The notes beneath the pieces are model-generated. The model ran no database searches, was not told where the DNA came from, and was given only the letters and a program-made list of their open reading frames with translations. This document shows, piece after piece, positions 8,340 through 44,589 of a stretch of 56,554 nucleotides of DNA. Each line of letters starts with the position of its first letter. Positions within the stretch are counted from its first letter, which is position 1. This DNA comes from an uncultured Bacteroidia bacterium (GTDB taxonomy: Bacteria; Bacteroidota; Bacteroidia; Bacteroidales; UBA932): the NCBI GenBank assembly GCA_902785065.1, contig CACZXH010000004.1:1-56554 (forward strand), given 5' to 3'. The position numbers were made by a program, and so were the translations under genes.

Positions 8340-8347
8340 ACGTGGAT

Positions 8348-8355
8348 CATCTTTG
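8348..8355 (+). promoter_or_regulatory. -7-like element abutting the GH3 start codon
   Basis: CATCTTTG differs from TAnnTTTG only in the first base and ends four bases before the ATG at 8360. It has the same geometry as the GreA-type promoter and again predicts a leaderless message. Confidence 0.4.
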
Positions 8356-8359
8356 CGAT

Positions 8360-10749: not shown

Positions 10750-13700
10750 TCAATGGTCGAATCGGGCGAAGAATTCGTCACGGGCCTGGTTCCAGCCGGG
10801 TTCGCGCTCGACATGGTGGCCACTTAACGGGAAGCAGATCCAGGATTTGTCCGTGTCCGCAGGAATGTTGTTGTAGCCGGCGAAATTGGTGTGCGGCGGG
10901 CAGGTGTCGTCCTGCAGGCCGAATCCCATCAGCACCGGACAATGGATCCGGTCGGTGAAATTCTTGACATCGACATAGGAAAGCGTGCGATACAGAGCCT
11001 CATCAGGGATACCGAGCCGTTTTGCAGCTGCGAGGATTTCATTGCCGGGCCAACCCGCCACCTGGAAGTAGTCCGGGTAATCGCTAAGGAAAGGCACAAA
11101 CGTAGCGATGGCCTTGACGCGCTGGTCGAGGGCGGCAGCAATCAGCGTGAAGGCTCCGCCTTGGCTGCCGCCTTCGGCAAAGATCCGAGAGAGGTCGGCT
11201 TTGGGCCGTGAACAGGCCAGATCGATTCCGCGAACGACATCCAGGAAAGCTCCGTGGTAATAGTAGGTTTCCGGACTATCGAGCCCTCGCGTCGTGAAAT
11301 TGGCTGGTTCCGAGAGGTCGCGGTTGAATCCCTGCCTGCGTGTGCAGAGCCAGATCTTGATGGTTTCGGGATTGTCGGAAGGATCTTCGTACCAAGGGTC
11401 GCAGTTATAGCCGAGATAATTGACATACACCGGGAACTTCCCGTCCTTGACGGGTTCCAGGAGGAGAGCCGAGATCGGCTCCCCTCCCCAGGACATCATA
11501 TCCACCCGGTATGCCTTCCGTACATCGTTGGAATGCTCCGGCAGTTCCGTCAGTTTGTATTGGGGATCCACCTCAGCCAGTTCCTGTAAGCTGCGTTCCC
11601 AGAAAGCATCGAAATCATCGGCCTTGTCAGGCGGCGAAACCACCTTTTCAGGGTCGCCGATGCCGACCACGAAGCGCTTGACCGGGCTCCTGCCCAGCGT
11701 CGCATCCACCCGGTAAAAACCGTCCGGAAGGTCGAAGGTGAAAGGCACGATGCCGTCCTTCGATACCGTCTTTTTCCATTCACCTACCGGCTCACCTTTG
11801 TCCGTGGCGAGCTTGACGGACAGTTCCACCGCCTTCTGGCCGAGGTCCTTCACTTCGAAACGCAGGGGCTTGTCCTTGCCGAGAATCCAGTCATTTTCGA
11901 CCAGCGCCTGGGCATACGGGGCGGCCCAGGCCGCATTTTTCCGGGGCCGTCCGGTCAAAGCCGTTTCGGGGACATTGAAACCCCGCAGGGTGATGTAAGG
12001 TTTTCCGGCACAGTCCTCCTTCCTCACCTTGACGGTAACGGTCTTGGATTCGCCCGGCATCAGGAAGAAGTAATTGTCGGAATACAGGACCGGGAGCACA
12101 AGGTCGCCGGTCGCAGGATCGACCGCCTTGAGGCGGAGCATCATGGCGGGAACCTTGTCGTCATTGGTCAGGGATACCGTAAACTCGTATCCGTCAGCCG
12201 TGGCCTTGCGGGAGACCCTGGTCTTCGGCGTAGTCTGGGCGACGGTTCTCAAGGCCTGCAGATTGCCTTCCTCGCGGCCTCGCCAGTAGAAGTTTTCCGA
12301 AAGTACGCTGCCGTCGGCTCCGGTCAGGCACAGCTTGATGAAATATGCGTCAGACAGGTTTTCCGGGAATTCCAGCGGGAAGCAGGCGACGGTCTGGTCT
12401 TCCCGGATGTCAAAGGTGGCGTCCCGGGTCCAGACGACCGTGCCGTCCAGATTGACAAGCTGGGCGCTGGCCTTCACTCCCTTCCGGTCGAAAGCATGGT
12501 AGTTCACGACTTCGATATCCTCCCGGATTGGGTTCCATTGGATATGGAGCGGCTCGCAGGCCTTCTTGCTGCCGAAGTAGGCGCCGGTCGGCTCAAAGTA
12601 GTAGTCGTACGTCTGCCAGACCATGGACGGCCACGCGGGATGGCTCATCCAGAGGATCATTCCGCGGCGATGTTCGCTGCGTCCCTCGAAGATGGCGCGG
12701 TATCCGTCATAGTTGACCCACTGGGCCAGTTCGCTGAATTCCTTGGCATTGACCGGCTCGCCGAACGCCTGGGCGATAATCTGGTTGAAGCTTTCGGCCG
12801 CCTGCGCCGAAGATGCGTTCGGCACGCCTCCGAGCGTGTAGTCGTGCAAGCCATACATCGCATTAGGATGGGCCAGGGTATTGACCGGTTCGATGTGGTC
12901 TTCGCCGAAGGCGCGCAGGAGGTTCTCGTAGTTCATCACGTTGGGCATGCCGCGCTCGCTGTGCATCTTGTCATGCCCATGGAGGTTGAAGTAGTCCCTG
13001 ACGGGAAGTGCCCGGTAAGGACCGCCGCCGCTGACCAGGCCGGCAGCCGAATGCGGGATATAGTACAGTCCGGGGTGCTCGCGCGGCACCATTTCGGTCA
13101 GGTAGTCATTGATCTCGGCCGGCGGATTCCCCTCATTGCGTCCGACATAAATAGCGATCGAGGGATGGTTGCGCACGCGGCGCACATACTCCGTGGCAAT
13201 CTCGTTGAACCGGTCGGGGTGGTAAGGATTCGGGCCATCGACCGGGTTGGCGAGCCAGAAGTCCTGCCAGACCATGACGCCATGACGGTCGCAGGCCTCG
13301 TAGAACTCCTTGTCGCCGGTCATGCCGACCCAGTTGCGGATCATCGTGAAATGCATGTCGGCATGGTAGCCCACCGCGATATCATATTCGCGGCCCCGGT
13401 AGTTGAGCAACTGTTCGGGGAAGCCCCAATTGCCGCCGAAGCCGATGAAGCGGCGTCCGTTGACATAAAGGCTCAGGCGCTCGCCGGTACTCCCATAATT
13501 CTGCCCCCCGTGCGGAAGATACTTCTCCACGGCGAAATCCATCTGACGCACGCCCGTCTGGAAGGACACCTCGTCAGAAGTCTTCCCATCACTCTCGAAG
13601 GAGAACCTGACGTCGTAGAGGTTCTGCTCGCCATATCCTGCCGGCCACCAGAGTTTGGGATGGTTCAGGTGAAGGGCCGGGACCTCGGCCGGAGAGACTT

Positions 13701-15684
13701 TCACGAGCTTGCTTTCGCCCGGGGTCAGGTCTTGGGCAAGTTCGAATGCGATATCACCGAAAGTGCCCTTGAGCAAGCCGGAAACGGGTTTGTCGGCGTG
13801 ATTGACCAACGTGACTTCGGCCAGGACATCGGCGGATGTGGTGTCCGGAAGAGGGAGGACGGTCCGGACGAAAGGATCGGCAATGCTTACCGCACCCTTG
13901 TAACACAGGTACACGTCGTCCCAAATGCCGATGTCGCGGCCGCGGACGGTTGGAATCCAGTCCCAGCCGATGGTCGCGTGCATGGTCGGGTTGTCCGCTC
14001 CGACGTATCCACCGTTCTGGTCGGTGCTGTAGGCCGTCTGCTCCTTGACCGCCCCGTAATGCTCGTTCTCATGGATGAGGACCGCCAGGTCGTTGCGGCC
14101 GTCCTTCAGGATGCCGGTCACATCGAATTCGGCCTCCCGGAATGCCCCCTCGATGCGTCCGAGGGAAGTGCCGTTGAGATACACGTCGGCCATCCAGTTG
14201 ATGCCATCGAAATGCAGATACTGGCGTTCGGAGTCAATGTGGGCATCGAAGGTGTCGCGGTACCAGAACGGGGAACGGAAGTATGAATCCGAAGCGACGA
14301 ACTGATTGTCCGCATAGTTGGGATCGGGAACGGCGCCGGCATTGACATAGCTTGCCAGGACGGTGCCGGGAACGGTCGCGACCATCCAGGCGGCATCGTC
14401 GAACGCGGTGCCGGACAGCGTCTTTCCATCGGCCTGTACCAGCGAAGCACGTTGAAGCTTCCAGGCGCCGCCGGAAAGGTCCTGACGGGCTCCCGTTCGT
14501 GCGGATGCCTTCTTAGGCACCACCGCTGCGCCGCCTTGGCCGAATACCTCGAGTTCAGCGAGCTCGAGCGGCTGTCCATTGGCAGAGCCATCGAACGTCA
14601 CCTTGACATAACGTCCTTCTGCGGCCTGGGCCAGTTTGATTTCGCTGAAATCGCTCCCGCCGGCCACCTTCGCCACGGACTTCCAGTCCTCAGCGTTATC
14701 GGAAACGAATATTTCGCCGGAAGTCGCGGGGTTGAGCCAATGAAAAACCAGTTTGTCAAAAGTAGATTCGAAGCCGAAGTCCACGCTCACCCACTCCCCG
14801 TCGGTGCCGGCACTGCGCCAGGCGCTGACGAACTTTGTGCTCGGCAGGACGTCGAGCAGTCTGCCGTCCTTGTAATAATTGACCGTATGCAGCGTCAGGC
14901 CGACTCCCTCGGGGAGGTCGAAGTCGAAGCAATACGACCCATAGGCCGCAGGTGCCTTGACATCGATGACGCAGGAAATCGTCCGGTTCACCGTCCTCGG
15001 TCCGGCATTTGGCCAGCGGTATGGCAGGGCCGCAGGGGCTTGCACCACCGGCTCCTTGTAGTCATAGAGAAACACCACCGGCGACGGGCCTTCCTGGACA
15101 GGTGTACGTCCCATATTGTAACGGTAGCCACCGGCCGCCTGGGGCGTGAACAGTTTGGCGGCTCCGGCTTTTCCCAGTTCTGTCCAGGCGGAACCATCGG
15201 CGGAACCCAGCAGGGTCAGAGACGCTCCTCCATCCTTTCCCGCAGGAAATGATGCGCTTCCCAGGATTTCAATCCGGTCGGCTTCCACGGACAAACCGTG
15301 AAAGTCCACCCGTACCTTCGGATCGGCCACGTCGAATGCAATCCGCGAGTCCGGCTTGCCGTCGAACAGCTTCTCGTGGTTGGGCTTGTCGACTGGTTTG
15401 CCTCCGTCCGTCAGGTCCACGAACGCGACCGGACCGTTCCCGACAATCCCGTCGGTGATGAGCTGCGACGTGAGGTTGTAGTCGTAGCTCGAGGATTGGC
15501 AGGTCACCCTCCCCAACGCGATGTTGCGGTAGGTACCGTCCCCCTTCACCAGGGAAGGAGCCGCGGATTCATCGGGATTGCCCGGATAGATGCCTATCCC
15601 CCGTGTCACGGCGGTTTGTTCGCGGGAGCACGCCGCCAGGACGAAGAGGACGGCCGCTCCGATAAGAATCGAGAAACGCTTCAT
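10750..15684 (-). CDS. GH2 beta-mannosidase-like / CE7 acetyl esterase fusion lipoprotein
   Basis: A 1644-residue fusion. Residues 1-19 form a lipoprotein signal (LAAC, Cys19). About 50-385 are discoidin-like beta domains. About 400-1140 is a GH2 enzyme of the mannosidase/exo-glucosaminidase type, with TIGWDWIPTVRGRDIGIWDD, acid/base Glu851 (GRNEGNPP) and probable nucleophile Glu910 (HSERGMP). From about 1250 a complete Bacteroidetes-style CE7 acetyl esterase follows: an Ig-like entry, then SPPDKADDFDAFWE, nucleophile Ser1507 (GGSQGG), Asp1592 (GLQDDTCPP) and His1623. The joint is in frame with no sign of a sequencing break. It is the last gene of the minus-strand run. One envelope protein could deacetylate and remove mannosyl units; the mannose specificity is inferred from context. 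Confidence 0.9.
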   Translation of the reverse strand: MKRFSILIGAAVLFVLAACSREQTAVTRGIGIYPGNPDESAAPSLVKGDGTYRNIALGRVTCQSSSYDYNLTSQLITDGIVGNGPVAFVDLTDGGKPVDKPNHEKLFDGKPDSRIAFDVADPKVRVDFHGLSVEADRIEILGSASFPAGKDGGASLTLLGSADGSAWTELGKAGAAKLFTPQAAGGYRYNMGRTPVQEGPSPVVFLYDYKEPVVQAPAALPYRWPNAGPRTVNRTISCVIDVKAPAAYGSYCFDFDLPEGVGLTLHTVNYYKDGRLLDVLPSTKFVSAWRSAGTDGEWVSVDFGFESTFDKLVFHWLNPATSGEIFVSDNAEDWKSVAKVAGGSDFSEIKLAQAAEGRYVKVTFDGSANGQPLELAELEVFGQGGAAVVPKKASARTGARQDLSGGAWKLQRASLVQADGKTLSGTAFDDAAWMVATVPGTVLASYVNAGAVPDPNYADNQFVASDSYFRSPFWYRDTFDAHIDSERQYLHFDGINWMADVYLNGTSLGRIEGAFREAEFDVTGILKDGRNDLAVLIHENEHYGAVKEQTAYSTDQNGGYVGADNPTMHATIGWDWIPTVRGRDIGIWDDVYLCYKGAVSIADPFVRTVLPLPDTTSADVLAEVTLVNHADKPVSGLLKGTFGDIAFELAQDLTPGESKLVKVSPAEVPALHLNHPKLWWPAGYGEQNLYDVRFSFESDGKTSDEVSFQTGVRQMDFAVEKYLPHGGQNYGSTGERLSLYVNGRRFIGFGGNWGFPEQLLNYRGREYDIAVGYHADMHFTMIRNWVGMTGDKEFYEACDRHGVMVWQDFWLANPVDGPNPYHPDRFNEIATEYVRRVRNHPSIAIYVGRNEGNPPAEINDYLTEMVPREHPGLYYIPHSAAGLVSGGGPYRALPVRDYFNLHGHDKMHSERGMPNVMNYENLLRAFGEDHIEPVNTLAHPNAMYGLHDYTLGGVPNASSAQAAESFNQIIAQAFGEPVNAKEFSELAQWVNYDGYRAIFEGRSEHRRGMILWMSHPAWPSMVWQTYDYYFEPTGAYFGSKKACEPLHIQWNPIREDIEVVNYHAFDRKGVKASAQLVNLDGTVVWTRDATFDIREDQTVACFPLEFPENLSDAYFIKLCLTGADGSVLSENFYWRGREEGNLQALRTVAQTTPKTRVSRKATADGYEFTVSLTNDDKVPAMMLRLKAVDPATGDLVLPVLYSDNYFFLMPGESKTVTVKVRKEDCAGKPYITLRGFNVPETALTGRPRKNAAWAAPYAQALVENDWILGKDKPLRFEVKDLGQKAVELSVKLATDKGEPVGEWKKTVSKDGIVPFTFDLPDGFYRVDATLGRSPVKRFVVGIGDPEKVVSPPDKADDFDAFWERSLQELAEVDPQYKLTELPEHSNDVRKAYRVDMMSWGGEPISALLLEPVKDGKFPVYVNYLGYNCDPWYEDPSDNPETIKIWLCTRRQGFNRDLSEPANFTTRGLDSPETYYYHGAFLDVVRGIDLACSRPKADLSRIFAEGGSQGGAFTLIAAALDQRVKAIATFVPFLSDYPDYFQVAGWPGNEILAAAKRLGIPDEALYRTLSYVDVKNFTDRIHCPVLMGFGLQDDTCPPHTNFAGYNNIPADTDKSWICFPLSGHHVEREPGWNQARDEFFARFDH

Positions 15685-15713: not shown

Positions 15714-17315
15714 TTATTTCCTGGGTTCCCGCGTATAGAGCTTGATGCGCAGGACGGTGGGACGCTCTCCCACATACGGGCCGGTCCAATCGGTCTCGTC
15801 GCCGTTGAGAACGCGACGCATCACCCAATGGCCATCCGGGTCGAAAGAGCCTTCCTCCACCTTGATGAAATGCCAGGCCTTGCCCTTGTCCTTGCGCTGG
15901 GGCAGGAAGGAATAGCGCACATTCTTGCCGAAGGCATAATACTCGTCCGGTCCCAGCTTGACCAGCATGGCATGGCCGGTGGCAGGCAACGGTTCGCCCG
16001 TGTCCGGCGCGCCCTGCACATTGCTGCGACGGGCGCGGCCGAAGGTCAGGATGGCCTGCCACTCGCCGAGGTCCAGATACTGCACGGCATGGTCCTCGGG
16101 CTCGAAAGCCGTGTAAATCTGTCCGCCGAGCCTCCACTCCATCAGTTTGTCGGCAATCGGGCGGAGCATGGCGTACTCGTCGGCCAAAGGGCCCACGCGC
16201 CGGCCGCCGTCCACCCCGAAGGGCGAGAATCCGATGCCGCGGGCGACCACCTCATAGAGGTATTTGGGGTCGGACATGGTCTCGGGCACCATCAGGGCAT
16301 TGTCCGGACGGGTGTAAAGGTCGATGACCTTCATGTAATTGGCGTCCCCCCGCTGGTAGATGTCCGGAGCGCAGAAGTCTATGCTCGGCGCAGCGGCCTT
16401 GTAGATGCAGATGACGTTGTCGGTGGCGCCGCCGCTTTCATACTGGGTGGCGGGTGGATTGCCGAACGGGTCGCGGAGCGCGACATTGACATACATCGGC
16501 AGCGGATTGACCTTCTTGCCGGCGGCGGCGACATAGTCGATGTAACGGGCTACGCTCCAGGCGTGGAAGTACTCGTCGGCGCGGTCGCCGAAGACCTGGG
16601 CCCAGGTACCCTTGTCAGACTTGGCGCCGAGTTCCTCGAGGATTTCCTTCTTCAGGAGAGCGTCGGGAACCTGGGCGTTGAAGAGCTTGTCGACGGACTT
16701 GGAGTAGTCGCGGACGCTGCCCCAGGTGCCGGGCTCGTTCTGGACCTGGACCAGGATGACGGTGTGGCAGGGATCGTATTCCTTGAGATACTCCATGAAT
16801 TTCGTGAAAGCCCTGGCGTCCTTCTCCATCAGGGCCGTGCAGTGCGGCGAAGGGGAATCGACCGGCTTTCCGTCCTTGCCGACCATGTTGAAATACTTCC
16901 TGGAGTCGAGCTTGACCCATTCGGGCACATAATGCGGGCTCCCGTTCTTCCAGGTGGCGAACCAGAGGAGGACCAGGCGGACATCATGCGCGCGGGCTTC
17001 GTCGATGATGGTCTTGACGGAACTGAAATCGAACTGCCCTTCGACCGGCTCGACCGCTTCCCAATAGATGGGCGTTTCCAGCGTATTGGCATGCATTTCC
17101 GCCAGGGTGTCGAACAGTTGTGGATGCATGGCCGGCCAGTTGTTTGAGTTGCCGGACTGGCCGCCGAGCATGAAGAAAGGCTTCCCGTCGACATAGAAGG
17201 CATACTGGCCGTCGGCCTGTTTGACAAACTGCGGGATGGGGGTCGCCGGCTGGGCCTGGGCCGTCGCGGCAAGAAGGAGCGCGGCCGCTCCGAGAAGAAT
17301 CGGGAAATGCTTCAT
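15714..17315 (-). CDS. GH35-like beta-galactosidase with DUF5597 domain
   Basis: A 533-residue secreted enzyme with a signal peptide (cleavage after about AQA, residue 21). The N-terminal (beta/alpha)8 domain begins FYVDGKPFFMLGGQ and carries the clan GH-A acid/base in VQNEPGTWG (Glu194) and the likely nucleophile in MVPETMSD (Glu345). The C-terminal ~150 residues match DUF5597, a beta domain that follows this type of GH35/GH42-like barrel in Bacteroidetes. Related proteins are annotated as beta-galactosidases. Here it could remove terminal beta-galactose that caps alpha-galactosyl side chains of galactoglucomannan, but the activity is inferred. It starts 9 bp after the GH26 gene and ends 29 bp before GH2-CE7, in one operon. 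Confidence 0.82.
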   Translation of the reverse strand: MKHFPILLGAAALLLAATAQAQPATPIPQFVKQADGQYAFYVDGKPFFMLGGQSGNSNNWPAMHPQLFDTLAEMHANTLETPIYWEAVEPVEGQFDFSSVKTIIDEARAHDVRLVLLWFATWKNGSPHYVPEWVKLDSRKYFNMVGKDGKPVDSPSPHCTALMEKDARAFTKFMEYLKEYDPCHTVILVQVQNEPGTWGSVRDYSKSVDKLFNAQVPDALLKKEILEELGAKSDKGTWAQVFGDRADEYFHAWSVARYIDYVAAAGKKVNPLPMYVNVALRDPFGNPPATQYESGGATDNVICIYKAAAPSIDFCAPDIYQRGDANYMKVIDLYTRPDNALMVPETMSDPKYLYEVVARGIGFSPFGVDGGRRVGPLADEYAMLRPIADKLMEWRLGGQIYTAFEPEDHAVQYLDLGEWQAILTFGRARRSNVQGAPDTGEPLPATGHAMLVKLGPDEYYAFGKNVRYSFLPQRKDKGKAWHFIKVEEGSFDPDGHWVMRRVLNGDETDWTGPYVGERPTVLRIKLYTREPRK

Positions 17316-17324: not shown

Positions 17325-18431
17325 CTATTTGATATTCTTGATATCTTCGAAGAAGAGATAGTGCTTGTCGGCTTTCATGGTCTTGAGCAGCTCGTTCGGG
17401 CGGGGCTTGAAGCCTCCCGGGCGCGGGCGGCGCGGCGGCGCATTGCGCCAGGTCAGCACGTAGGAGCACTTGTAGGCGGGAAGGATCTTCTGGAGGTCGA
17501 GGCTGAGCGGGCCGCACTCGCTGAGCGCGAAAAGCTTGCCCTTCTCGTCCGCGGTCTCGGAGACGAAGTCCATCGCCTTCTTGATGTTGCGGTTGAATTC
17601 TTCGCCCTGGCCGTACCAGTCGATGGAGAGCATGTCGCAGTAGGCATCCCCGGGATAACCGCGCAGATATTCCTCCTTGGAGTACACTTTATCCGTGTTG
17701 TACATGAAAAGGATGTTGTGCAGGCCCCTGCCGCGCAGGTAATCCACCGTATAACGGAACAGGGCGGCATACTCCTCGTCATAGCAGCGCTCCCTCCCCC
17801 ACCAGAAGAAGTTCCCGGAGTGCTCGTGATACGGACGGAAGAGGAACGGGATGAGCTTCCCTTCATCGTCGCGCCAGCTCAGGAAGAAGTTGGCGAGCCG
17901 GTCCAGCCAGGTGTTGAACATCGCGTTGTTCGCGCCGCCGGGCAGGACGCTTCGCACGGCATTCAGGCCGTCCGCCGAAAGCATTTTCACTTCCCAAGCC
18001 GAGCCGGCACCGTTGGGCTCCTTGATGCCCGGCCACTGGGACGTAATGGGATTCACCAGATGCCAGCTGACGGTCAGGAAGCCGCCTTTCTCGTGGAACC
18101 ATTTGGCCATCTTGCGGATGTGCGCGAAAGAGACGGAGTCGAGGCTGCGGTTGTGCCCCAGCTCCAGTTCGCCCAGTTCGCAGCCGGCCATGGCCGGATA
18201 GTCCCCGGTTTCGGTCTTGGTATCGGAATTCCCTTCCACCTCCCACCAGGTGTAGCCGGTGAGCAGGTCGTCCTGGTGTCCATACATGATGCCTTTCTCC
18301 CGGATCTTGGCGAGCCGTTCAAGAAGTTGCCGCGCTTCCGGGGTCGCTTCCGGGTCCGCGCACTGGAAGGCCTGCGCGGAAAGGGTCAGCGCAGCGCCCA
18401 AGGCGAAAACTGTCAATAGAATACGTTTCAT
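17325..18431 (-). CDS. GH26 endo-beta-1,4-mannanase
   Basis: A 368-residue GH26 enzyme with a type I signal peptide (cut near SAQA, residue 21). Family marks are GIMYGHQDD near residue 48, VSWHLVNP (122-128), acid/base Glu203 in FRPYHEHSGNFFWWG and nucleophile Glu305 in FALSECGPLS. GH26 enzymes cleave internal beta-1,4-mannosidic bonds, and in Bacteroides one paralogue often releases mannobiose. No lipobox is present, so it is probably periplasmic rather than surface-anchored. It is one of two adjacent GH26 genes that differ strongly in sequence, suggesting different products. The gap to its upstream neighbour is 17 bp and to the downstream gene 9 bp. Confidence 0.93.
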   Translation of the reverse strand: MKRILLTVFALGAALTLSAQAFQCADPEATPEARQLLERLAKIREKGIMYGHQDDLLTGYTWWEVEGNSDTKTETGDYPAMAGCELGELELGHNRSLDSVSFAHIRKMAKWFHEKGGFLTVSWHLVNPITSQWPGIKEPNGAGSAWEVKMLSADGLNAVRSVLPGGANNAMFNTWLDRLANFFLSWRDDEGKLIPFLFRPYHEHSGNFFWWGRERCYDEEYAALFRYTVDYLRGRGLHNILFMYNTDKVYSKEEYLRGYPGDAYCDMLSIDWYGQGEEFNRNIKKAMDFVSETADEKGKLFALSECGPLSLDLQKILPAYKCSYVLTWRNAPPRRPRPGGFKPRPNELLKTMKADKHYLFFEDIKNIK

Positions 18432-18448: not shown

Positions 18449-19456
18449 TTATCGGTTATGCGGGACAGGGTCCCTGTAGTTGATGACTTCAGGCAGGGTG
18501 AAGATCGCCTTCAGATCATCCATCGTGTTGTATCGGTCGTTGGTGAAGCCCGTCCAGATCATGAACCAGGCGAACTTGTCCATCTGCCGGAGCATTTCGG
18601 GCGTGGGCAGACTGCCCAGTTCTCCGAGGGCGATCAGCTTCCCTTTGCCCAGTTCGACGAGCTGGTCGTGGTGCGACAGCTTCCAGTCCCGGTTGTATAC
18701 GTCTGTGGCCAGGACATCGACATATTCGTTTCCGGGGTAATACAAGGCATAGGCCCGGGCCGTGTCGTTGGGGATCTCACGCGGCGCATTGGCGTTCCAT
18801 ACCCAGATCAGGTTGTCCAGGTGATGGACGTCCACCAGGCGGTGATAGAGCATTTTCCAAAGTTTGGTAAACCCGTCAGGGCCTTCTCTCCATCCCCACC
18901 AGAACCATTCGCCGTTCATCTCGTGGTACGGTCTCCAAAGCACGGGAATGTGCCGGTCCTTGAGCACCTGGAGGAATGTGGCGATGGAGTCCACCTGTTC
19001 CTTCCACATCCGGTTCATCTCTGAACCTTCTGTGACGAGTTCTTTCCACTGCGCCTCCGTGAACTTGCCCTGGGTCTGCGTGCGGAAGTCCACCCGCGGC
19101 GTGCGGTCAAAGGGCCGGTTCACGTGCCACATCAGCGTGATAATGTGGCCGCGCCGGTACTCGTGCTCGGCGATGCGGACGACCTGCGCCGCATCCCAGG
19201 CGAGGTCTCCTCCCCAGATCATCGGTACCTTCCCGGAAGCATCCTCGATGCGGTCCAGGTCGAACAGATAGTTGGGCAGCTGCAGCTGGTTGTGGTGAAG
19301 GGCGGAGATGATCTTTCCTTCCGCAACCGTCTGGTAGAGGTCCGCCAGAAGCGCTTTCGCTTCGGGCGTGGCGTTGGGATTGACAGGCTCATAAGGTTGC
19401 GCCGCCAGGACGACGCCCAGCAGCCCTGCCACGATCAAAGTGAGGGTTCGTTTCAT
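18449..19456 (-). CDS. GH26 endo-beta-1,4-mannanase, second paralogue
   Basis: A 335-residue GH26 enzyme. The frame opens at 19486, but I use 19456 because MKRTLTLIVAGLLGVVLA there forms a signal peptide and the spacing to the preceding stop (7 bp) fits the operon. Acid/base is Glu179 in RPYHEMNGEWFWWG and nucleophile Glu279 in IALGELGS. The sequence WGGDLAWDA and MWHVNRP also fit GH26. It is shorter than its neighbour and lacks a lipobox, so it is likely periplasmic. Paired GH26 enzymes in mannan loci commonly divide work between random cutting and mannobiose release; which does which cannot be told from sequence alone. Confidence 0.93.
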   Translation of the reverse strand: MKRTLTLIVAGLLGVVLAAQPYEPVNPNATPEAKALLADLYQTVAEGKIISALHHNQLQLPNYLFDLDRIEDASGKVPMIWGGDLAWDAAQVVRIAEHEYRRGHIITLMWHVNRPFDRTPRVDFRTQTQGKFTEAQWKELVTEGSEMNRMWKEQVDSIATFLQVLKDRHIPVLWRPYHEMNGEWFWWGWREGPDGFTKLWKMLYHRLVDVHHLDNLIWVWNANAPREIPNDTARAYALYYPGNEYVDVLATDVYNRDWKLSHHDQLVELGKGKLIALGELGSLPTPEMLRQMDKFAWFMIWTGFTNDRYNTMDDLKAIFTLPEVINYRDPVPHNR

Positions 19457-19463: not shown

Positions 19464-22400
19464 TTATTCTGCGAAAACACTGACAAAGCTTTCGGCCGGC
19501 ATGAAGACCTCCACCTTTCCGTCGACGACCGGCAGGCACTGCGACTCGGCGTTGGAGCCGGCGTTCGTTACCTGCACGAGCGCGCGGGTGGACGAGGCAG
19601 GCAGGCCGGAGATGACAGCCGGACAAGACGCCGCATTGTTTACGATGTGGACGGCGCTCTTCCCACGGGCCGTATTGATGAAGGAGGCGACGTTGATGTT
19701 GTCCTTGTCGACGGTCGTCGGAATGGCGAAGGAATTCACCGGCGTCGAGGCCAGCTGCTTGAGGTTGAAGAAGCGCTGGGTGGGACGGAGCGGTCCTTCG
19801 GAACCATAGATGCCGTCACCCCAGAGGATGGAGTAATCCGAGGTCAACTGCCACTGCAGGATGCTGAGCGGCTGGCTGATCGCGCAGATACGGGTGTACA
19901 GGTTGATTTCGTACAGCGCAAAGGTCGATTCGTTGAAGATGCCCGGGTACTGGTGCGCCGCAGCATCGGTGCTCCCCTCGCCCACGATGAGCGGTACGTT
20001 GATCCGCCGGGAAGCCGCCGCCCATTTGCGCAGGGTCTCGTCGTCACACCCCCGCCAGGAATGGAAGGAGATCGCGCCGACATAGCGGAGTGCCGCCGGG
20101 TCTTCCAGGGTCGGGACGATGAAGTCGAAGGTGGTGGCGTCGGAATTGTCGCCGAGCAGCATCAGGGTCTTCAAGCCCTGGTCGGCCATGTACTTGCCGA
20201 AGTCCTTGATGAAGTCCCGGTGCTCTTCGGGCGTATGGACGACATTGATGCCCAGGTCGGACTCGTTGAAGGAGAAATAGTCGGGCTCGCAACCGTACTC
20301 TTTCTTCAGGTAGAGCAGGTAGGAGGCGATGGATTCGAAGATTCGGTCCTGCTCCTCGTGCTTGAGCGAATAGGCGCGGGAGGTTCCGTCGGAGCGGGTT
20401 GTCAGGTTTCCGGCCCACATCGGCGGGAACCACGCACTGACGATGACAGGCATCCCCACCTGCTTGAGGCGGCGGGCCATCTCGGCGCTCCGTCGGACAT
20501 GGTCGCCGGGGTTACCCCCGCCAAAACCGCCGCCGAAGCCCTGACGCTGCCCCTCATAGCGCTCGGGATGCGTGAACATATCCCATTGGCCCCAGGGGAA
20601 TTCCACGCGGCCGAAGGCGACGCGCAGGTTCTCCAGGCAATAGTCGATCACCTCGGGATCCTTCTGGACGTTCTGGATGCGGAAATTGCCCCCGAAACCG
20701 GTGAAAAGACGGCCGGGGTTGGCGGCATCCAGGTCTATGTGCGCCGTCTCGTGGTGCTGGACGCCGGAGACCTTCATCACAGCCGCGAAATCGGCCTTGT
20801 CCCCCTTCTTGAGTTTGGGCAGGAAGGTGACATAGAGCACCTTGTCGCCGTTTTCGGTGCGGACGAAGGACTTGACGGGCTTGTCGAAGGTCAATACGAT
20901 GTTTCGCTCGGGCGCGGTCACGGTGATCTTCTTGCCGGAAGCCTTGATGGTGGCGTCGGCATAGTATTTCGGCGCGAAACTCATGCAGAAATACGCACCG
21001 CCTTCCCGGGTTTCGTCCGCCGCGACGCTCCATTTCAAGTTCACCGTGTTCAGGTCCACATCGGTGACCGACTGGGTGAAGGTGACGCCTTTCCGCATGG
21101 GCGTGACGGTCGTCTGCGTGAAACCGTCGCGTCTGTACTGGATGCGGCTCTGCTTCTCGCGGCCGGAGGATTCGATATCTCCCCCGGGAATCCCCACCCG
21201 GAGCGTCGACTCGAAGTCAATCAACTCACCCTCGCTGCGCACGCCTGTGATATTGCTCCATGCCATTACCTCGGTATGGACGGCCGGATGCGCCAGGCGG
21301 GCGACGGCTTCATAGCCCATCCGGGCATTGTGGTAGGGGCAGTTCCAGGTGCTGGCCTTGGGTGACCGCGGGCTGGGCTGATAGGCCCCGTCCAACTCCT
21401 TGAACCATCCGCCGTTCTCCGTATCGATGAAGTGCTTGCGGGTGAAATCCCAGTTCTTCGCGGCCGCATCGAAATACTTCTTCTGCCCGGTGATCTGCCA
21501 GGCGTTGATGCATCCGATCACGGTCTCGCATTCGGGCCACCACTGGAAAACCGGGCGGGGTCCCTCCAACTTCATCGCCCCATCGGCATTCAGGCCTTCG
21601 GCCAGGGCGACATCGACCATCTCGACGGCCTGCTTGCGGACCTTTTCCACGAGCGCCTCGTCGCCGACGGCCTCGGCCGATTCGCACATCAGCCAGGAGG
21701 TCTCGATGTCGTGCCCATAAGAATCGTCGGTGTCGACGACGTTCCAGTCGTCATCACAGTAAAGGATCAAGTGCTTGGTAACCGGGTTGTACAGTTTCGT
21801 CTGCAGGATGTCGAGGAGTTCGAGGATCGCGGCTTTCAACTCGGGATCCGGCCAGGCGAAATACAGGTTGGTGAAGCCCTCCATCACGTGGATGTGGGTG
21901 TTCATCGTCTTGGTCGCCGAGGCCCGTCCATCGATGCCCTTGGCGTCGGTACGGCTCCAGTCCCGGTTGAAGACCTCGATATAGCCCTTCTTCGCCGCGT
22001 CATGGGAATGCTCTTGCAGCACCCGGAAAATGCCCTGGGCGGCTTCCAGGCTGCCGAGGTCTCCAGTCGCCCGGAAATGCTCGGAGAGGCCGTAGATGCC
22101 GAAAGCGTTGGCGTAGGTCTGCTTGGTGCCGTCTTTTATCGCGCCTTCGCTGTCGACGGTCCAGAATACGCCGCCATACTTCCGGTCGATGAAATGCTGC
22201 TTGAAGTAGTCCGCCGCCCGGTCGGCCATTTCCTTGTAGGCAGGAAGGCCGTACTGGCGGTAAGCGCGGGAGAATGTCCAGAGGATGCGCGCATTCAGGA
22301 TGGCGCCTTTGTCGGTCGGGACAGCCTTTCCGTCGTTCATCACCGTCCCGTAGAAACCGCCATCAGGGTCTACGGTGTATTTCATCCAGAACGGAAGGAT

Positions 22401-22526
22401 GCCTTCGACGAGATCTTTTTCGATGCTGGCGGAAAGGTCCTCGATCTGGTCCCGCGGCTGGGAATGGGCCAGGGCCGGGACCAGCAGTAGAAGCATGGAA
22501 ATGAAAAGGAGACGATAGCGTTTCAT
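19464..22526 (-). CDS. Secreted 2-epimerase / GH30-like glycosidase fusion
   Basis: A 1020-residue fusion with a type I signal peptide (cut near residue 22). Residues ~25-415 match the N-acylglucosamine/cellobiose/mannobiose 2-epimerase family: MNTHIHVMEG (His211), SYGHDIETSW (His272, Glu275), QWWPECE (Glu332) and CPYHNARMG (His399) are the conserved barrel residues. About 415-590 is a beta-rich linker domain I do not recognise. About 595-1020 is a clan GH-A glycosidase resembling GH30: FTGFGGNFRI, acid/base Glu755 in SFNESD, nucleophile Glu850 in IVGEGST, and a C-terminal beta domain. Known mannobiose 2-epimerases are cytoplasmic single-domain proteins that feed a GH130 phosphorylase. Here the epimerase is exported and tied to a hydrolase. 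Domain calls are firm; the substrate is inferred. Confidence 0.9.
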   Translation of the reverse strand: MKRYRLLFISMLLLLVPALAHSQPRDQIEDLSASIEKDLVEGILPFWMKYTVDPDGGFYGTVMNDGKAVPTDKGAILNARILWTFSRAYRQYGLPAYKEMADRAADYFKQHFIDRKYGGVFWTVDSEGAIKDGTKQTYANAFGIYGLSEHFRATGDLGSLEAAQGIFRVLQEHSHDAAKKGYIEVFNRDWSRTDAKGIDGRASATKTMNTHIHVMEGFTNLYFAWPDPELKAAILELLDILQTKLYNPVTKHLILYCDDDWNVVDTDDSYGHDIETSWLMCESAEAVGDEALVEKVRKQAVEMVDVALAEGLNADGAMKLEGPRPVFQWWPECETVIGCINAWQITGQKKYFDAAAKNWDFTRKHFIDTENGGWFKELDGAYQPSPRSPKASTWNCPYHNARMGYEAVARLAHPAVHTEVMAWSNITGVRSEGELIDFESTLRVGIPGGDIESSGREKQSRIQYRRDGFTQTTVTPMRKGVTFTQSVTDVDLNTVNLKWSVAADETREGGAYFCMSFAPKYYADATIKASGKKITVTAPERNIVLTFDKPVKSFVRTENGDKVLYVTFLPKLKKGDKADFAAVMKVSGVQHHETAHIDLDAANPGRLFTGFGGNFRIQNVQKDPEVIDYCLENLRVAFGRVEFPWGQWDMFTHPERYEGQRQGFGGGFGGGNPGDHVRRSAEMARRLKQVGMPVIVSAWFPPMWAGNLTTRSDGTSRAYSLKHEEQDRIFESIASYLLYLKKEYGCEPDYFSFNESDLGINVVHTPEEHRDFIKDFGKYMADQGLKTLMLLGDNSDATTFDFIVPTLEDPAALRYVGAISFHSWRGCDDETLRKWAAASRRINVPLIVGEGSTDAAAHQYPGIFNESTFALYEINLYTRICAISQPLSILQWQLTSDYSILWGDGIYGSEGPLRPTQRFFNLKQLASTPVNSFAIPTTVDKDNINVASFINTARGKSAVHIVNNAASCPAVISGLPASSTRALVQVTNAGSNAESQCLPVVDGKVEVFMPAESFVSVFAE

Positions 22527-22538: not shown

Positions 22539-23840
22539 TTATTGTTTGGGCGTCAGGCGGAATGCGACGACGTCGTGCGGATCCACGACAACCTGGGTGT
22601 TGACGGGAACCATCTGCCCGCGCTGCTTACCCCTGCCCTTGGCGAGCGTCGTGAAGGGTTTCGCGGCCGGATTCCAGATATTCCGGACAGTATAGTTCAC
22701 GATGCCGAAAGAGGTGGCCCGGCCGCTGAGCGTGTCATTCACTTCCAATGCGGTCCAGTCGACAGGCACCATCACCGCTGCATCTCCGGTATTGAGGATG
22801 CAGAAGGCCCAGTCGCCGTCCGAAAGCGGCTTGAACCAGTACTGCAGGTCTCCGTCCTTCTTCAGGCGCAGGCCCTGGATACCGAGGGGGTCCTGGTCCA
22901 CGGCAATCATCTCGCGGTTGGTGATGATGGCCAGGGTCTCCGGCGTCATATTGGTGATGTCGTTGCCGAGGATGAGCGGAGCCGCCATCATGCACCAGAG
23001 GGTGAAATGGGCGCGGTCCTCGCTGACGCTCATGCCGTTACCGACTTCGAGCATGTCCGGATCGTTCCAGTGCCCGGGCCCGGCATACTGGCGCAGGGGT
23101 TCGTTCATTTCGACGATCTCCATCACGCCCAAAGCTTTCCAAAGGGGCCGGCCGTCCGGACCGCGACGCAAAGGGATAGGCATGAAACTGATGCCGATGT
23201 CACCCGTGGTCCGCCAGGAGTGGCCGACGTCGGCGGCCCATTCCCAGGGCTTGGAACTCCCCCATTCGCACATGCTGAAGAGGATGGGGCGTCCGGCTGC
23301 CCGGAGGGCGTTCCGCATCAGGGCATAGGCTCCCTTGGGATTGATATTATTGGTATAGCACCAGTCGTACTTCAGGTAATCGACGCCCCAATGGGCATAC
23401 ATGAAAGCGTCCTGGTACTCGTGTCCCAGGCTTCCGGCATAACAGGCGCAGGTATTGGTGCCGGCATCGCTGTAGATGCCAAGCTTGAGTCCCCTGGCAT
23501 GGAGATAGTCGGCCAGGGCCTTCATCCCGGAAGGGAACTTCTCCGGATCTTCGTGGATGAAACCCTGCGCGTCGCGCTCCCCGTGCCATCCGTCGTCGAG
23601 GTTGAGATAAACATAGCCGGCATCGACGAGGCCGTACTCGACCATCTTGTCGGCGATGTCCTTGATCAGGTCTTCGTGGATGTTTGTCTGGAACTTGTTC
23701 CAGGAACTCCAGCCCATTTGCGGTGTATCGGCCAGGCCCTCCCATTTCGGGAGCGGCTTGTCCGGGGTACGCTGAGAAAAGCAGACCTGAACGGCCATCA
23801 GCAGCAGGGATACAGTCAGAAGGGTTTTGATGCGTTTCAT
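22539..23840 (-). CDS. GH27 alpha-galactosidase
   Basis: A 433-residue secreted enzyme with a type I signal peptide (cut near FSQ, residue 23). It has the classic GH27 landmarks: TPQMGWSSWNKF near residue 40, LDDGWHG, GLKLGIYSDAGT, nucleophile Asp159 in YLKYDWCY, and acid/base Asp260 in GHWNDPDML. A C-terminal beta-sandwich closes the protein. It should remove alpha-1,6-galactose from galactomannan or galactoglucomannan chains or their oligosaccharides, clearing the backbone for the mannanases encoded downstream. It lies in the operon with 20-bp and 12-bp gaps on either side. A second alpha-galactosidase type (GH97) is encoded near the promoter end of the same run. Confidence 0.94.
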   Translation of the reverse strand: MKRIKTLLTVSLLLMAVQVCFSQRTPDKPLPKWEGLADTPQMGWSSWNKFQTNIHEDLIKDIADKMVEYGLVDAGYVYLNLDDGWHGERDAQGFIHEDPEKFPSGMKALADYLHARGLKLGIYSDAGTNTCACYAGSLGHEYQDAFMYAHWGVDYLKYDWCYTNNINPKGAYALMRNALRAAGRPILFSMCEWGSSKPWEWAADVGHSWRTTGDIGISFMPIPLRRGPDGRPLWKALGVMEIVEMNEPLRQYAGPGHWNDPDMLEVGNGMSVSEDRAHFTLWCMMAAPLILGNDITNMTPETLAIITNREMIAVDQDPLGIQGLRLKKDGDLQYWFKPLSDGDWAFCILNTGDAAVMVPVDWTALEVNDTLSGRATSFGIVNYTVRNIWNPAAKPFTTLAKGRGKQRGQMVPVNTQVVVDPHDVVAFRLTPKQ

Positions 23841-27136: not shown

Positions 27137-27167
27137 CAAATATATAATCGTTATCATTCTATTCAAA
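27137..27167 (-). promoter_or_regulatory. Internal promoter before the CE1-type esterase gene
   Basis: TTTG (27167 to 27164), exactly 19 bp, and TATATTTG (27144 to 27137) match both halves of the Bacteroidetes consensus perfectly. The predicted start of transcription is 1-3 nt before the ATG at 27130. It sits in the 32-bp gap inside the operon and would give a leaderless message for the esterase and genes beyond it. Confidence 0.65.
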
Positions 27168-29205
27168 GCGGGGAGACCCGGAGATTGTCGAAATAAGGAG
27201 TACTTACCTTCTTTTCCTGGAGAGGAGCCAACAGCCCGGCCATGCCGTGCGTATAATGGTCTGATTGTGCTTTCACCACTTCCCTGCCGTCCACGCAGCC
27301 GGTAATCCAGTCACCTTCGAAACGGAGACGGAGGTTGTGCCATTGACACGCAGACAATCCTGCCACCGTGGCCGTGGCGAGCGTGTACTCGCCGCCGATC
27401 TCCACGTCTTTTCGCGCCAGGATGGCCGCTTGCTGCTCGGCATCGCCGATGAGTTCCTTCGGATTGGGTTTACCGCGGGTAAGCACCAGGGTGCACTTTC
27501 CCTGGTCATCGAGTTTGAGATAGTAGCCTTTCGCCCAGATACCGTAACCGCTGCCGACATCGCAGAGGCGGCCCATCAAGCCGGCTTCGTCCCCAGGATT
27601 CAGATACACGTCGGCGCTGACTTCATAATCCTTCCAGGCCACGTCCCCGAGGATGGAGTAGTGATGCCATTCCGGCGCCCAGCTGAGGGTATGTTCGCTG
27701 ACGGTCTGCCGGATGCACCGGCCTTGATGGTCGGGCCTTTCCGTGAGCTCGAAGCAGCCGATGAGGTCGGCCAGGTAATGAGGCAGGTATCCATATTCCG
27801 CAGGGTGGGTGTACTGCTCGAAAGCGTCCTCGTAAGGGAACGGGAACGGTTTGGACGCTGGAATGTCGTCGAACGATCCCTTGACCTGTCCCCGGGTGGT
27901 CGAGAAGGAATAAACGCTTCCGGGCTCCAGGTTCAGGACCAGGGTCCGGCCGCGGGGAGACAGGTCGGCCTGACGGACAAACTGCGCGCGTTCGTTGCTG
28001 AGCCATACGCAGAGTTTGTCAGCGGAAAGTCCTTTTGGAATCTGGATGCGGACGGTCTGCGGCGCTTTCGCATCCTTGGTTTCCACGATGATGCTGTAAT
28101 CGCCCGATGCAGGATCGCGGAGCATGCACATGGAACCGCCGCCGTCCAGTTTCGTGCATGCGTCATCGACATATTGCCAGCCGAGGCGCGTAAACTGACC
28201 ATAGTGCGCATAGCCCCAAAGGGCCTCCCGTACGACATAATGGCCGCTCCAGGGCTCATGGGCAAGGATCATCGGCGGATCCTGGCTGTAAGGCTCCAGC
28301 GGATAGACAGCGCCGATATCGTACCAGTTGACGACCTTCGTGGCTCCGCTGACGATATAGTTCTCATTGAAGCACTTGACAATGGTGATCAGGCAGTCGA
28401 AGCCTTTCCGGTAGATATGCTCTTCACTGTTCCAAAGCGGTTTGCCGAGCTTTTCGACCATTTCGCGCTGTTCCTTGTACAAGGGTATTTCGCTGAAAGT
28501 ATGGGCGCATACGATATCCAGCGCATCCGCAAACTCGGGGTCCTCCAGCATCCGGGGCAGGAACTCGAGTTTGGTCCTCCCCCAGTTGCCGAAACCATGG
28601 AGCTTGACGTCGCGGAAGCCGCGCTCGTCCAACGCGCGACGCATGTGCTTGGCGAAATCTGCGTCCCAGCCCTTTTCATTGTGGCAGCCCAGGGCGTCCA
28701 GTTCCAGGCCGTGCACTTCGCGCAGCCCCCGCATCCAGGCGATGTAGTAATCCACCATCCCGTCTGTCCAGAAACCGCCCACCCAGGCCGGCGCACTCCA
28801 GGCCGTGGCATCCAGGGTCAGTTTCGGATTGCGTTTGACGGCTTCCTCCAGCACCCACCACATGTATCCCCGCTCGAAGTTGGCGTCGCCCTGGAAATGG
28901 CTGTGGGAAGGCATGCTCCCCTGCGTGGAATTACCGTCACCAGGGATTTCCACGAGGATGGTGCTGACAGAAGCCCCGAACATCGGCTTGAAAACCAGGT
29001 CCATGATCTGGGATTTCTGGGGTTCGGGATAATCTTTCAGGAGGACGGAAGTGGCTCCACCTCCGTTGACGGCTCCGATTCCATCGAAGCGCTTGCCTGC
29101 CAGGGCATTGCCGATACGGATTTCCTGAGGCTTCCCGGGGTTCCGGGAAGCGGCGGAAACGCATAGGCAGCAAAGCAGGGATACCGTGACGATACTCTTT
29201 TTCAT
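27163..29205 (-). CDS. GH59 galactocerebrosidase-like beta-galactosidase
   Basis: A 680-residue protein closely following GH59. The N-terminus reads FDGIGAVNGGGATSVLL, then FKPMFGAS and EIPGDGNSTQGSMPSH, a run characteristic of galactocerebrosidases. Acid/base is Glu177 in GCHNEKGW, nucleophile Glu261 in WNSEEHIY. The C-terminal half contains a beta domain and a laminin-G/lectin-like domain (EVSADVYLNPG, MGRLCD, YFDNLRV), as in the animal enzyme. A signal peptide covers about residues 1-20. GH59 members hydrolyse beta-galactosides; in bacteria the natural substrate is poorly known. It lies 15 bp after GH97 in the operon, so a plant or host beta-galactoside linked to the same glycan is suggested. 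Family call is strong; substrate is unknown. Confidence 0.9.
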   Translation of the reverse strand: MKKSIVTVSLLCCLCVSAASRNPGKPQEIRIGNALAGKRFDGIGAVNGGGATSVLLKDYPEPQKSQIMDLVFKPMFGASVSTILVEIPGDGNSTQGSMPSHSHFQGDANFERGYMWWVLEEAVKRNPKLTLDATAWSAPAWVGGFWTDGMVDYYIAWMRGLREVHGLELDALGCHNEKGWDADFAKHMRRALDERGFRDVKLHGFGNWGRTKLEFLPRMLEDPEFADALDIVCAHTFSEIPLYKEQREMVEKLGKPLWNSEEHIYRKGFDCLITIVKCFNENYIVSGATKVVNWYDIGAVYPLEPYSQDPPMILAHEPWSGHYVVREALWGYAHYGQFTRLGWQYVDDACTKLDGGGSMCMLRDPASGDYSIIVETKDAKAPQTVRIQIPKGLSADKLCVWLSNERAQFVRQADLSPRGRTLVLNLEPGSVYSFSTTRGQVKGSFDDIPASKPFPFPYEDAFEQYTHPAEYGYLPHYLADLIGCFELTERPDHQGRCIRQTVSEHTLSWAPEWHHYSILGDVAWKDYEVSADVYLNPGDEAGLMGRLCDVGSGYGIWAKGYYLKLDDQGKCTLVLTRGKPNPKELIGDAEQQAAILARKDVEIGGEYTLATATVAGLSACQWHNLRLRFEGDWITGCVDGREVVKAQSDHYTHGMAGLLAPLQEKKVSTPYFDNLRVSPL

Positions 29206-31200: not shown

Positions 31201-31221
31201 TGTTTCGTTCTCTTTAAAAAT

Positions 31222-31253
31222 CCCGCGAAGGAGCCTCGCGGCTTCTTCGCGGG
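31222..31253 (-). terminator. Strong terminator-like hairpin between susD and GH97
   Basis: A 14-bp stem with one G-T pair and a four-base loop (31222-31235 with 31240-31253; arms begin CCCGCGAAG and end CTTCGCGGG). On the minus strand it is followed by ATTTTTAAAG, giving the stem plus T-run of an intrinsic terminator, 21 nt before the GH97 start. Partial termination here would make susCD transcripts more abundant than enzyme transcripts; 3' end protection is the alternative. Confidence 0.7.
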
Positions 31254-31286
31254 AACCACACATTTTAAAAACCAAAAACCAACCAA

Positions 31287-33077: not shown

Positions 33078-33098
33078 GATCAATTCAGATTTAGCAAT

Positions 33099-36000: not shown

Positions 36001-36275
36001 TCGCGCTGTCCCCGGCTAAGGGCGATTTCCTGTCCGGAATAACCGATGCAGGAAGCGACAAGCACGGCATTGTCCGGAACAGACAGCGAGAATGCGCCGG
36101 TAGCGTCAGTGACCGTTCCAACCGAAGTCGATCCCTTCAAGAGGACGCTGGCTCCGATGATGGGTTCACCGTTGGCATCCTTGACCGAACCGGTGACCCG
36201 GTTCTGGGCAAGCAGGACACCTCCGGTGGCAAGCAGGAGAATAGCGGCAAGCGCAATCCTGAGCAGTTTTTTCAT
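33099..36275 (-). CDS. SusC-family TonB-dependent outer-membrane transporter
   Basis: A 1058-residue SusC-type receptor. A signal peptide (cut near LLAQ, residue 23) precedes a carboxypeptidase-regulatory-like domain (VTGSVKDANGEPIIGASVLL). Next come the TonB-box-like segment EFLDETVVIGYGTQKKSDVTG, the plug (with GGDPNGGYNIRIRG and DASATAIYGSNGANGVILVTTRKG) and a 22-stranded barrel ending in a terminal aromatic-rich strand (RTYMIGIKLGL). It imports oligosaccharides into the periplasm with SusD, using TonB energy. No STN domain is present, so it probably does not signal through an anti-sigma factor. This agrees with control by the divergent hybrid two-component regulator. It is the first gene of the thirteen-gene run. 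Confidence 0.96.
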   Translation of the reverse strand: MKKLLRIALAAILLLATGGVLLAQNRVTGSVKDANGEPIIGASVLLKGSTSVGTVTDATGAFSLSVPDNAVLVASCIGYSGQEIALSRGQREANFVLSEDTEFLDETVVIGYGTQKKSDVTGSVASVDSESMLQRSPLTIAQGLQGAAAGVVVTQSGGDPNGGYNIRIRGVATMQGNTNPLWIVDGVDHGTSSNLSWLDPQEVASIEILKDASATAIYGSNGANGVILVTTRKGKSGKPRVDFNSTFGISTYATRLKMASLSDWLVAYRQSVENDGRTAFPAFDGTHDNQLHEIDWQDVMTQTSYRQQYNVQVSGGSDTARTSFSVGYQDNQGIIVNSWSKRLFLRLSSDVNITKWLKAGLSVNFNTGKNKGGGNMINYARIVPTMDYLDRETNQLVHVPVQYDNGDFGHFVFHQDVEMSAGMYQTNPYAEQYKTTYGKDWDNDNGSIRNSFYAEVTLFPGLVFRTNLKYDFSGSNSWSYSPSWVATYYDWQQLNGDKAVDGFSTGGSASTSLAAENYLTFDREFAKHHVTAMIGQSAGKYHASSNGSSTKDLTFPFLRGFFSTNSNDYDKGSGGPSIQSRNASYFARLNYSYDSRYSVTATIRRDGSSNFGRDHRWGTFPSFAAAWNLGREPFMKNLGIFDVLKLRAGWGTTGNANVSATASVPQLSTGSTFDYFTSEDYNRLVGIMQSREIDTGLHWETSVQTNFGIDLAVLHNSLTFSADYYIRDTRDLILSKTIRPSAGFDNITTNFGSIRNSGWEFALGYKKQLTRDWFFAASATASTNKNKAVDIGAGTTNSGATGAGWENYQVCYNGLPLGTYQGFRVDHIIKDQAEIDALNAKAVEKHGQGSYYDRQGTAPGDFLFKDLNGDGHITNEDKEYLGNGFAKLNYGLNLSANYRNWDASIYMYGALGQTLLSWSKCYLTTIRNENNGYYNFLEEAVKDSWTPTNPNAKYPRVTRTDVGDNMRVSDFFVEKGDYLKISNFQIGYSFGSGVLGSSLLKNAISSLRISLSIQNLLTISPYNKFGDPEVSAGVTSTGYDGGRYPFPRTYMIGIKLGL

Positions 36276-36560: not shown

Positions 36561-36617
36561 AAATGTTAGGAATCGTACACGGAAATGTCTATTTTCATAT
36601 CGAAAAACTGCGCGCCC

Positions 36618-44545: not shown

Positions 44546-44573
44546 GATTTCATCGATGATTGGTGTACCAAAG

Positions 44574-44581
44574 CAAATATA
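44574..44581 (-). promoter_or_regulatory. -7 element for the GH9 gene
   Basis: TATATTTG on the minus strand matches TAnnTTTG exactly, 28 nt before the GH9 ATG. No clear -33 partner is visible. It abuts the oppositely directed acyltransferase promoter. Confidence 0.5.
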
Positions 44582-44589
44582 GATAAAAA

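Follow-up and report, generated by a model that had tools for sequence, protein, structure and literature searches.

What would a bacterium gain by exporting a sugar 2-epimerase, and by building it into the same protein as a glycosidase? The question is raised by one gene in the 56,554-nucleotide stretch of DNA analysed here (the window, by which we mean the whole of that stretch), namely positions 1 to 56,554 of contig CACZXH010000004.1 in NCBI GenBank assembly GCA_902785065.1, from an uncultured Bacteroidia bacterium of the Bacteroidales lineage UBA932. The gene occupies 19464..22526 on the minus strand, and its product joins a cellobiose/mannobiose 2-epimerase domain to a C-terminal domain resembling glycoside hydrolase family 30 (GH30-like), behind a probable signal peptide. 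Our answer, to which we would give a probability of about one half, is that this is a periplasmic two-enzyme protein that dismantles galactoglucomannan oligosaccharides. Epimerases of the AGE family, GH30-like glycosidases and mannan-type loci are all known already; it is the combination, exported, fused and without a tie to the mannosylglucose phosphorylase GH130, that is new.

The fused protein and its parts

Read on the plus strand, 19464..22526 is interrupted by a stop; on the minus strand, from an ATG at 22526, it is one frame of 1020 residues, which the Pfam scans and the relatives described below likewise support as a single fusion gene. Its parts, all on the minus strand, are a signal peptide of roughly residues 1-22 (22461..22526), with cleavage placed by eye near LAHS/Q, a hydrophobic peak of 2.82 and agreement with the aligned N-termini of relatives; the epimerase domain (residues 26-415, 21282..22451), recognised by PF07221, solved structures and NCBIfam; a beta-rich linker domain (residues 416-590, 20757..21281), which by alignment and models is the N-terminal domain of unfused homologues; and the GH30-like domain (residues 591-1020, 19467..20756), called from Pfam, a profile and a fold match. 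An earlier sequence-only reading had proposed just such a 1020-residue fusion of epimerase and glycosidase behind a signal peptide, and Pfam, solved structures and ten genomes now confirm it, on the minus strand.

The epimerase half is the more easily recognised. PF07221 matches it at 8.7e-38 (130.9 bits, the cut-off being 23.4), and solved cellobiose 2-epimerases match residues 28-417 at 3e-95 to 4e-95. Against the NCBIfam equivalog EpiA the fused protein scores 280 bits, under the 800-bit cut-off, and because the genome's own cytosolic epimerase (294 bits) misses it too, the equivalog is stricter than the family. In the alignment to solved structures, His213, His272, Glu275, Glu334 and His399 fall on positions 200, 259, 262, 326 and 390 of RmCE, of which 200, 259 and 390 are presumably RaCE 184, 243 and 374, at a constant offset of 16. 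It is RaCE His184, His243 and His374 that are named as catalytic (PMC13281645; this and the other PMC papers are cited from parts of their text). All three counterparts are present, as His213 (codon 21888..21890), His272 (21711..21713) and His399 (21330..21332), and the ten intact fused proteins are identical at His211, His213, His272, Glu275, Glu334 and His399, at Glu755 and Glu850 of the other domain, and likewise at Arg80, Trp330 and Trp394. The residues first proposed for this site therefore stand in part: His272 and His399 hold, whereas His211, conserved as it is, lies two residues off the histidine that aligns to RaCE His184, and Glu332 is replaced by Gln in six of the ten, Glu334 being the conserved one. 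We expect the domain to catalyse reducing-end 2-epimerisation of a beta-1,4-disaccharide.

The C-terminal half is harder to name. Scanned alone, it matches PF02055 (GH30) at 1.3e-4 and 21.5 bits, below the Pfam cut-off of 23, and a scan of the whole protein gives no GH30 match at E 1. A profile built from 16 relatives of the domain matches AcXbh30A at 1e-8, GH30 xylanase B at 2e-8 and, weakly, glucosylceramidase (0.03), the matches to GH30 structures spanning both the barrel and the C-terminal parts. Glu755 (codon 20262..20264, motif FNESD) and Glu850 (19977..19979, motif GEGST) are invariant in all 18 aligned proteins, the window's included, and are the probable acid/base and nucleophile, respectively. 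By profile, the protein may share a barrel and a C-terminal beta-sandwich with the GH30 enzymes AcXbh30A (7n6h, subfamily 10 by its PDB title) and fungal xylanase B (6iuj), and like them it has two invariant glutamates; it differs in falling below the Pfam cut-off, in its extra N-terminal beta-rich domain and in a glucomannan-type rather than a xylan context. We also built two AlphaFold models, from alignments of 4 and 5 rows combining window and related-locus sequences, with mean predicted local distance difference test scores (pLDDT) of 58.5 and 59.7. Their top Foldseek matches are GH30, but at a root-mean-square deviation of 15-18 A on poor models, and we take them as weak support; matches to GH97 and GH101 were set aside, 730-850 columns being aligned there at more than 21 A. 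The linker, of about 175 residues, has no Pfam match and no significant match among sequences of solved structures. The GH30-like hydrolase of the sequence-only reading is therefore upheld by the invariant glutamates and by the profile matches, but not as a member of PF02055: the evidence carries us to "GH30-like" and no further, and at the Pfam cut-off there is no warrant for placing the domain in GH30. We predict that it is a retaining beta-glycosidase.

Is the joint between the two halves real? We searched the family (398 genomes, with residues 443-1020 as query), the order (393 genomes) and, using the epimerase, the phylum (395 genomes). A scan of contigs from related genomes had given six loci, five of them fused (one ending at a contig edge, one with an in-frame stop) and one with the epimerase alone. 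The family search found 17 genomes with a match, comprising seven complete fused proteins, one split, seven unfused proteins of about 640 residues and two fragmentary cases; the order search found nine, the window's included, and added one fused protein from another family. With L007 and G336 counted as one (their contigs are equal in length and give an identical match), the uninterrupted fusion with all its parts occurs in ten genomes: the window's, L005, L007/G336, L008, G144, G308, G279, G096, G288 and G573, the last being the one outside the family. Three others bring the fused-gene genomes to 13: L004, whose frame is open to the contig end, G161, split over two contigs, and L006 (Prevotella sp. 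ne3005, 9830-12955; a record not labelled as a metagenome-assembled genome), in which the hydrolase part carries one in-frame stop that is either a real inactivation or a sequencing error. The unfused linker and GH30-like proteins (in G366, G013, G050, G065, G095, G123 and G148, and on two Hymenobacter plasmids) have the same two domains and in several cases comparable loci; they lack the epimerase, are about 640 residues long and begin with a signal peptide of their own, exactly where the epimerase of the fused proteins ends, as though in the fusion an epimerase had been inserted between signal peptide and linker. An artefact of assembly or an overlooked stop around residues 415-595, the weak point that had been foreseen for this protein, is ruled out by the ten uninterrupted genomes together with the unfused homologues that start at the joint. 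By these comparisons the joining of an exported epimerase with a GH30-like domain is a genuine architecture, and purifying selection acts on both enzyme domains and on the linker, with ratios of nonsynonymous to synonymous substitution (dN/dS) of 0.04-0.30 across the seven pairs tested.

Export was judged only from the hydrophobicity of the first 40 residues and from a cleavage motif. On this measure the ten fused proteins peak at 2.38-3.02 and six unfused epimerases (two in G366, one each in G065, G085, G013 and G560) at 2.64-3.32, four of the six being lipoprotein-like by eye, and measured epimerases without a signal reach at most 1.32; the fused protein, unlike the cytosolic epimerases, is by this evidence exported. 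When 45 epimerase domains are placed in a tree, the 17 from exported proteins (12 fused, 5 unfused) cluster together with support of 95/96, and 21 rows labelled cytosolic and six long cytosolic-type rows fall outside it; the G560 epimerase was found later and is not among the 45. On the question of whether the fusion arose once, each of two trees asks for two label changes to place the fused rows, a single change being enough in 4% and 38% of their bootstrap replicates. The odd row is G366, and loss in G366 or a second joining may explain it equally well. That genome carries two tandem exported epimerases (L083 7719-11409), one lipoprotein-like, directly before a GH130 gene and then SusC/SusD-like genes. 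A secreted-looking protein of about 634 residues stands beside exported epimerases (L102 10643-12547; L103 5235-7139, which equals L062 2713-4173; L104 2099-4000) and also near one fused gene (L041 18762-20000); Pfam recognises none of the copies scanned (L102, L103/L062 and part of L041), and solved structures include no relative of the L102 copy.

Are there other fusions of this kind? The epimerase-domain search of the 398 family genomes gave at least 141 with a match at 1e-40, and the matches listed include frames of 1162-1197 residues in five genomes of genus g9 and one frame of 743 residues running to a contig end. Only that of G028 (L043/L084 749-4261) was scanned against Pfam, its relatives of similar length being in G047, G088, G099, G110 and G063 (one cut by the contig). 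It joins a cytosolic-type epimerase to a GH3 beta-glucosidase-like domain in a locus with GH130, GH27 and GH2. Like the window's protein, it brings an epimerase and a predicted exo-type beta-glycosidase together in one frame within a mannan-type locus, but it has no signal peptide, sits on a separate branch of the tree, has a GH3 partner and lies near GH130. In the phylum sample (44 of 395 genomes with a match at 1e-50) the window's is the only epimerase frame longer than 551 residues among those listed. A literature search, mainly on epimerases, found no cellobiose/mannobiose 2-epimerase that is exported or fused to a glycosidase in the partial texts it reached; it covered few subscription papers, so absence is not proven.

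The phosphorylase and the fused gene

Epimerases of this type are known to work with a GH130 phosphorylase, and the Bacteroides fragilis pathway is one such comparable system. In Segatella copri the cytosolic relative EpiA acts on mannobiose, cellobiose and mannosylglucose, epimerising each at its reducing end, and GH130 then takes disaccharides with mannose at the non-reducing end, the breakdown of glucosylmannose (Glc-Man) and cellobiose being left to speculation in the text covered (PMC12704710). The same model of a cytosolic epimerase with GH130 is given for a moose-rumen Prevotella locus (PMC6784887) and for PUL219 of an anaerobic digester (PMC6643232). The window's protein shares with the S. 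copri system the type of epimerase reaction and the type of substrate locus; there, however, the epimerase is separate and cytosolic, and here it is exported and fused, with no GH130 near its gene.

An exported epimerase at work in the classical pathway would be expected to occur together with the mannosylglucose phosphorylase. A whole-genome search placed no GH130 on the window's contig and found the phosphorylase on another, and none lies near any of the 11 fused genes read with their flanks (the window's, L005, L006, L007, L008, L037, L039, L040, L041, L042 and L105; L004 and G161, on cut contigs, are outside this count). Among the 44 phylum genomes with an epimerase match, GH130 adjoins the epimerase in all six unfused cytosolic loci that were read, that of L097 being only a weak piece of 139 residues. 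A close phosphorylase occurs in nine of the 13 fused-gene genomes (the window's own and eight at 70-90% identity), and the other four, G279 (96% complete), G573 (99%), G144 (80%) and G161 (86%), have no match at 1e-8. All nine with the phosphorylase also have a separate, signal-less epimerase, and the four without it have the fused epimerase alone. A hand calculation that treats the 13 genomes as independent, which they are not, puts the chance of such a split at 1 in 715. With nine genomes having both and four neither, the phosphorylase follows the cytosolic epimerase and not the fused one, and this lack of a tie favours a periplasmic, hydrolytic route. The sequence-only reading had guessed at a route without GH130, and the four genomes that lack both the phosphorylase and any other cellobiose-type epimerase give it independent support.

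The same data bear on the most serious competitor, in which the exported epimerase feeds the cytosolic phosphorylase: mannosylglucose (Man-Glc) would be made in the periplasm, imported by a GPH-type transporter and cleaved inside by GH130, the GH30-like domain being a separate, upstream backbone hydrolase. The tandem exported epimerases of G366, lying directly before GH130 with SusC-/SusD-like genes after it, are what this idea would predict. Against it are the four phosphorylase-free genomes, two of them nearly complete, and the cytosolic epimerase that each of the nine phosphorylase-bearing genomes owns besides, and we consider it unlikely.

The phosphorylase of the window genome (L106, contig C3) matches a solved mannosylglucose phosphorylase at 1e-208 and is followed by a GPH-type transporter. 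It belongs to a second mannan-type locus with several GH26-like genes and no epimerase within 20 kb or on that contig. The cytosolic epimerase of the same genome (L029 10619-11794, contig C44) lies amid genes that by eye, from their N-termini, resemble arginine deiminase, carbamate kinase and ornithine aminotransferase, and in view of these neighbours we did not adopt it as part of a mannan pathway.

The locus and its counterparts

What kind of polysaccharide does the window locus attack? On the minus strand and by Pfam, the fused gene is directly followed by a GH26 gene (18449..19456), a second GH26 (17325..18431), a GH35/GH42-like gene with DUF5597 (15714..17315) and a GH2 with an AXE1-type esterase in a single frame of 1644 residues (10750..15684). 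Upstream are a GH27 alpha-galactosidase-like gene (22539..23840), which is the immediate neighbour, a GH59-like gene (27163..29205), a GH97 (29221..31275), a SusD-like gene identified by eye from sequence and position (31287..33083), a SusC-like TonB-dependent transporter (33099..36278) and, past a hybrid two-component regulator on the plus strand (36585..40397), a GH9 on the minus strand (41993..44596), a homologue of which several relatives have next to the fused gene. A plus-strand GH3 (8342..10657) marks the other edge, and there are further esterases. The joined GH2-AXE1 frame is shared with L007, and the GH2 frames of L039, L041 and L038 are shorter and without AXE1. Beta-galactoglucomannan has a backbone of alternating Glc and Man with branches of beta-Gal-alpha-Gal, and GH26 requires mannose at subsite -1 (both PMC10735049, from the text covered); the predicted enzymes of the locus would fit galactoglucomannan, including this kind.

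The neighbours recur, if unevenly. Among the 11 fused loci, GH26 is near six, GH9 near seven and one or the other near ten, the window's GH9 lying 19 kb from the fused gene and that of L008 being only 31% identical. The remaining locus, L042 of G144, has neither, and its neighbours are by eye UvrA-, oxidoreductase- and histidyl-tRNA synthetase-like. Unfused homologues have GH26 or GH9 on four of seven contigs (L032, L033, L036 and L038) and neither on L031, L034 and L035; the unfused exported epimerase of G560 comes directly after a GH9. On the two Hymenobacter plasmids (L148 4472-6400 and L150 7989-9896) the unfused protein, annotated as hypothetical, keeps company with GH27, a beta-galactosidase, a sialate O-acetylesterase and GH2, and in one case GH9; the annotation of the stretch shown includes no GH26.

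Such company for a protein without an epimerase, as on these plasmids and on the four unfused contigs, suggests another possibility, that the GH30-like domain cleaves the backbone, in endo or exo fashion, and that the epimerase edits the reducing ends it makes, perhaps relieving product inhibition or altering import, the two being fused for proximity rather than for successive steps on one disaccharide. The nearest solved sequence relatives, AcXbh30A and fungal GH30 xylanases, lend this some colour. The window locus, however, already has two GH26 and a GH9 for cleaving the backbone, and a GH30-type mannan enzyme is not described in the partial literature covered (no specific search was made), and we find the idea rather improbable.

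A periplasmic route and its meaning

How, then, might a periplasmic two-enzyme protein work? From sequence we infer its substrate, activity and direction, the linkage cut by the hydrolase and the coupling of the two domains, and the scheme runs as follows. Acting at the cell surface and in the periplasm, the GH26, GH9, alpha- and beta-galactosidases and esterases that the locus encodes would yield short, bare beta-1,4 chains, many of them ending in mannose (Glc-Man, Man-Man) because GH26 needs mannose at subsite -1. The epimerase domain would equilibrate the reducing-end mannose with glucose, turning Glc-Man into cellobiose and Man-Man into Man-Glc, and the GH30-like domain would hydrolyse the same oligosaccharide pool, pulling the reversible epimerisation forward. 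Glucose, with mannose from Man-Glc, would then be taken up, and a cytosolic phosphorylase would not be needed. The sequence-only reading had favoured mannobiose; since the window's enzymes fit a galactoglucomannan of alternating Glc and Man, conversion of Glc-beta-1,4-Man to cellobiose seems at least as likely. We hold somewhat more tentatively to the broader proposal of a phosphorylase-independent mannan route, in which an exported bifunctional enzyme epimerises the mannose end and hydrolyses the product, some mannose thus entering the cell as glucose, and in which exported epimerases form a functional class of their own.

Several observations weigh against this scheme. The GH30-like domain lies under the Pfam cut-off and both structure models are poor; the GH30-like protein is unfused in seven of the 17 family genomes with a match; GH26 is missing from five of the 11 fused neighbourhoods; and beside the G144 gene only one weak esterase match recalls the window locus. 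The Hymenobacter loci have no annotated epimerase in the stretch shown, for which the gene table is incomplete. Outside the fused-gene set the link between cytosolic epimerase and phosphorylase breaks down, as G013, G065 and G123 (94, 87 and 63% complete) have a cytosolic-size epimerase and only GH130 relatives of 28-30% identity; the paired unfused epimerases of G366 do precede GH130, and since nine of the 13 fused-gene genomes, the window's included, have the phosphorylase, an exported product could be imported and phosphorolysed. That the epimerase domain is inactive, and now a binding or structural module, we judge very improbable: export of the epimerase family is not described in the partial literature covered, and its dN exceeds that of the hydrolase in all seven pairs, yet its three catalytic histidines, Glu275, Glu334, Arg80, Trp330 and Trp394 are identical in all ten intact proteins and its dN/dS is 0.105-0.242.

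The periplasmic route is directly testable in genomes like G279 and G573, where the fused gene is present but both members of the classical epimerase-phosphorylase pair are missing, and the fused protein may also be a ready-made bifunctional catalyst. If the scheme is right, conversion of Glc-Man to cellobiose would supply a substrate for ordinary beta-glucosidases and so address the gap left in the S. copri pathway, as the covered text of PMC12704710 presents it. The published models, in the parts covered, place the mannobiose/cellobiose epimerase in the cytosol with GH130, and an exported, hydrolase-linked form would add a second route; its presence in some gut bacteria suggests an unstudied, extracytoplasmic way of digesting plant glucomannan.

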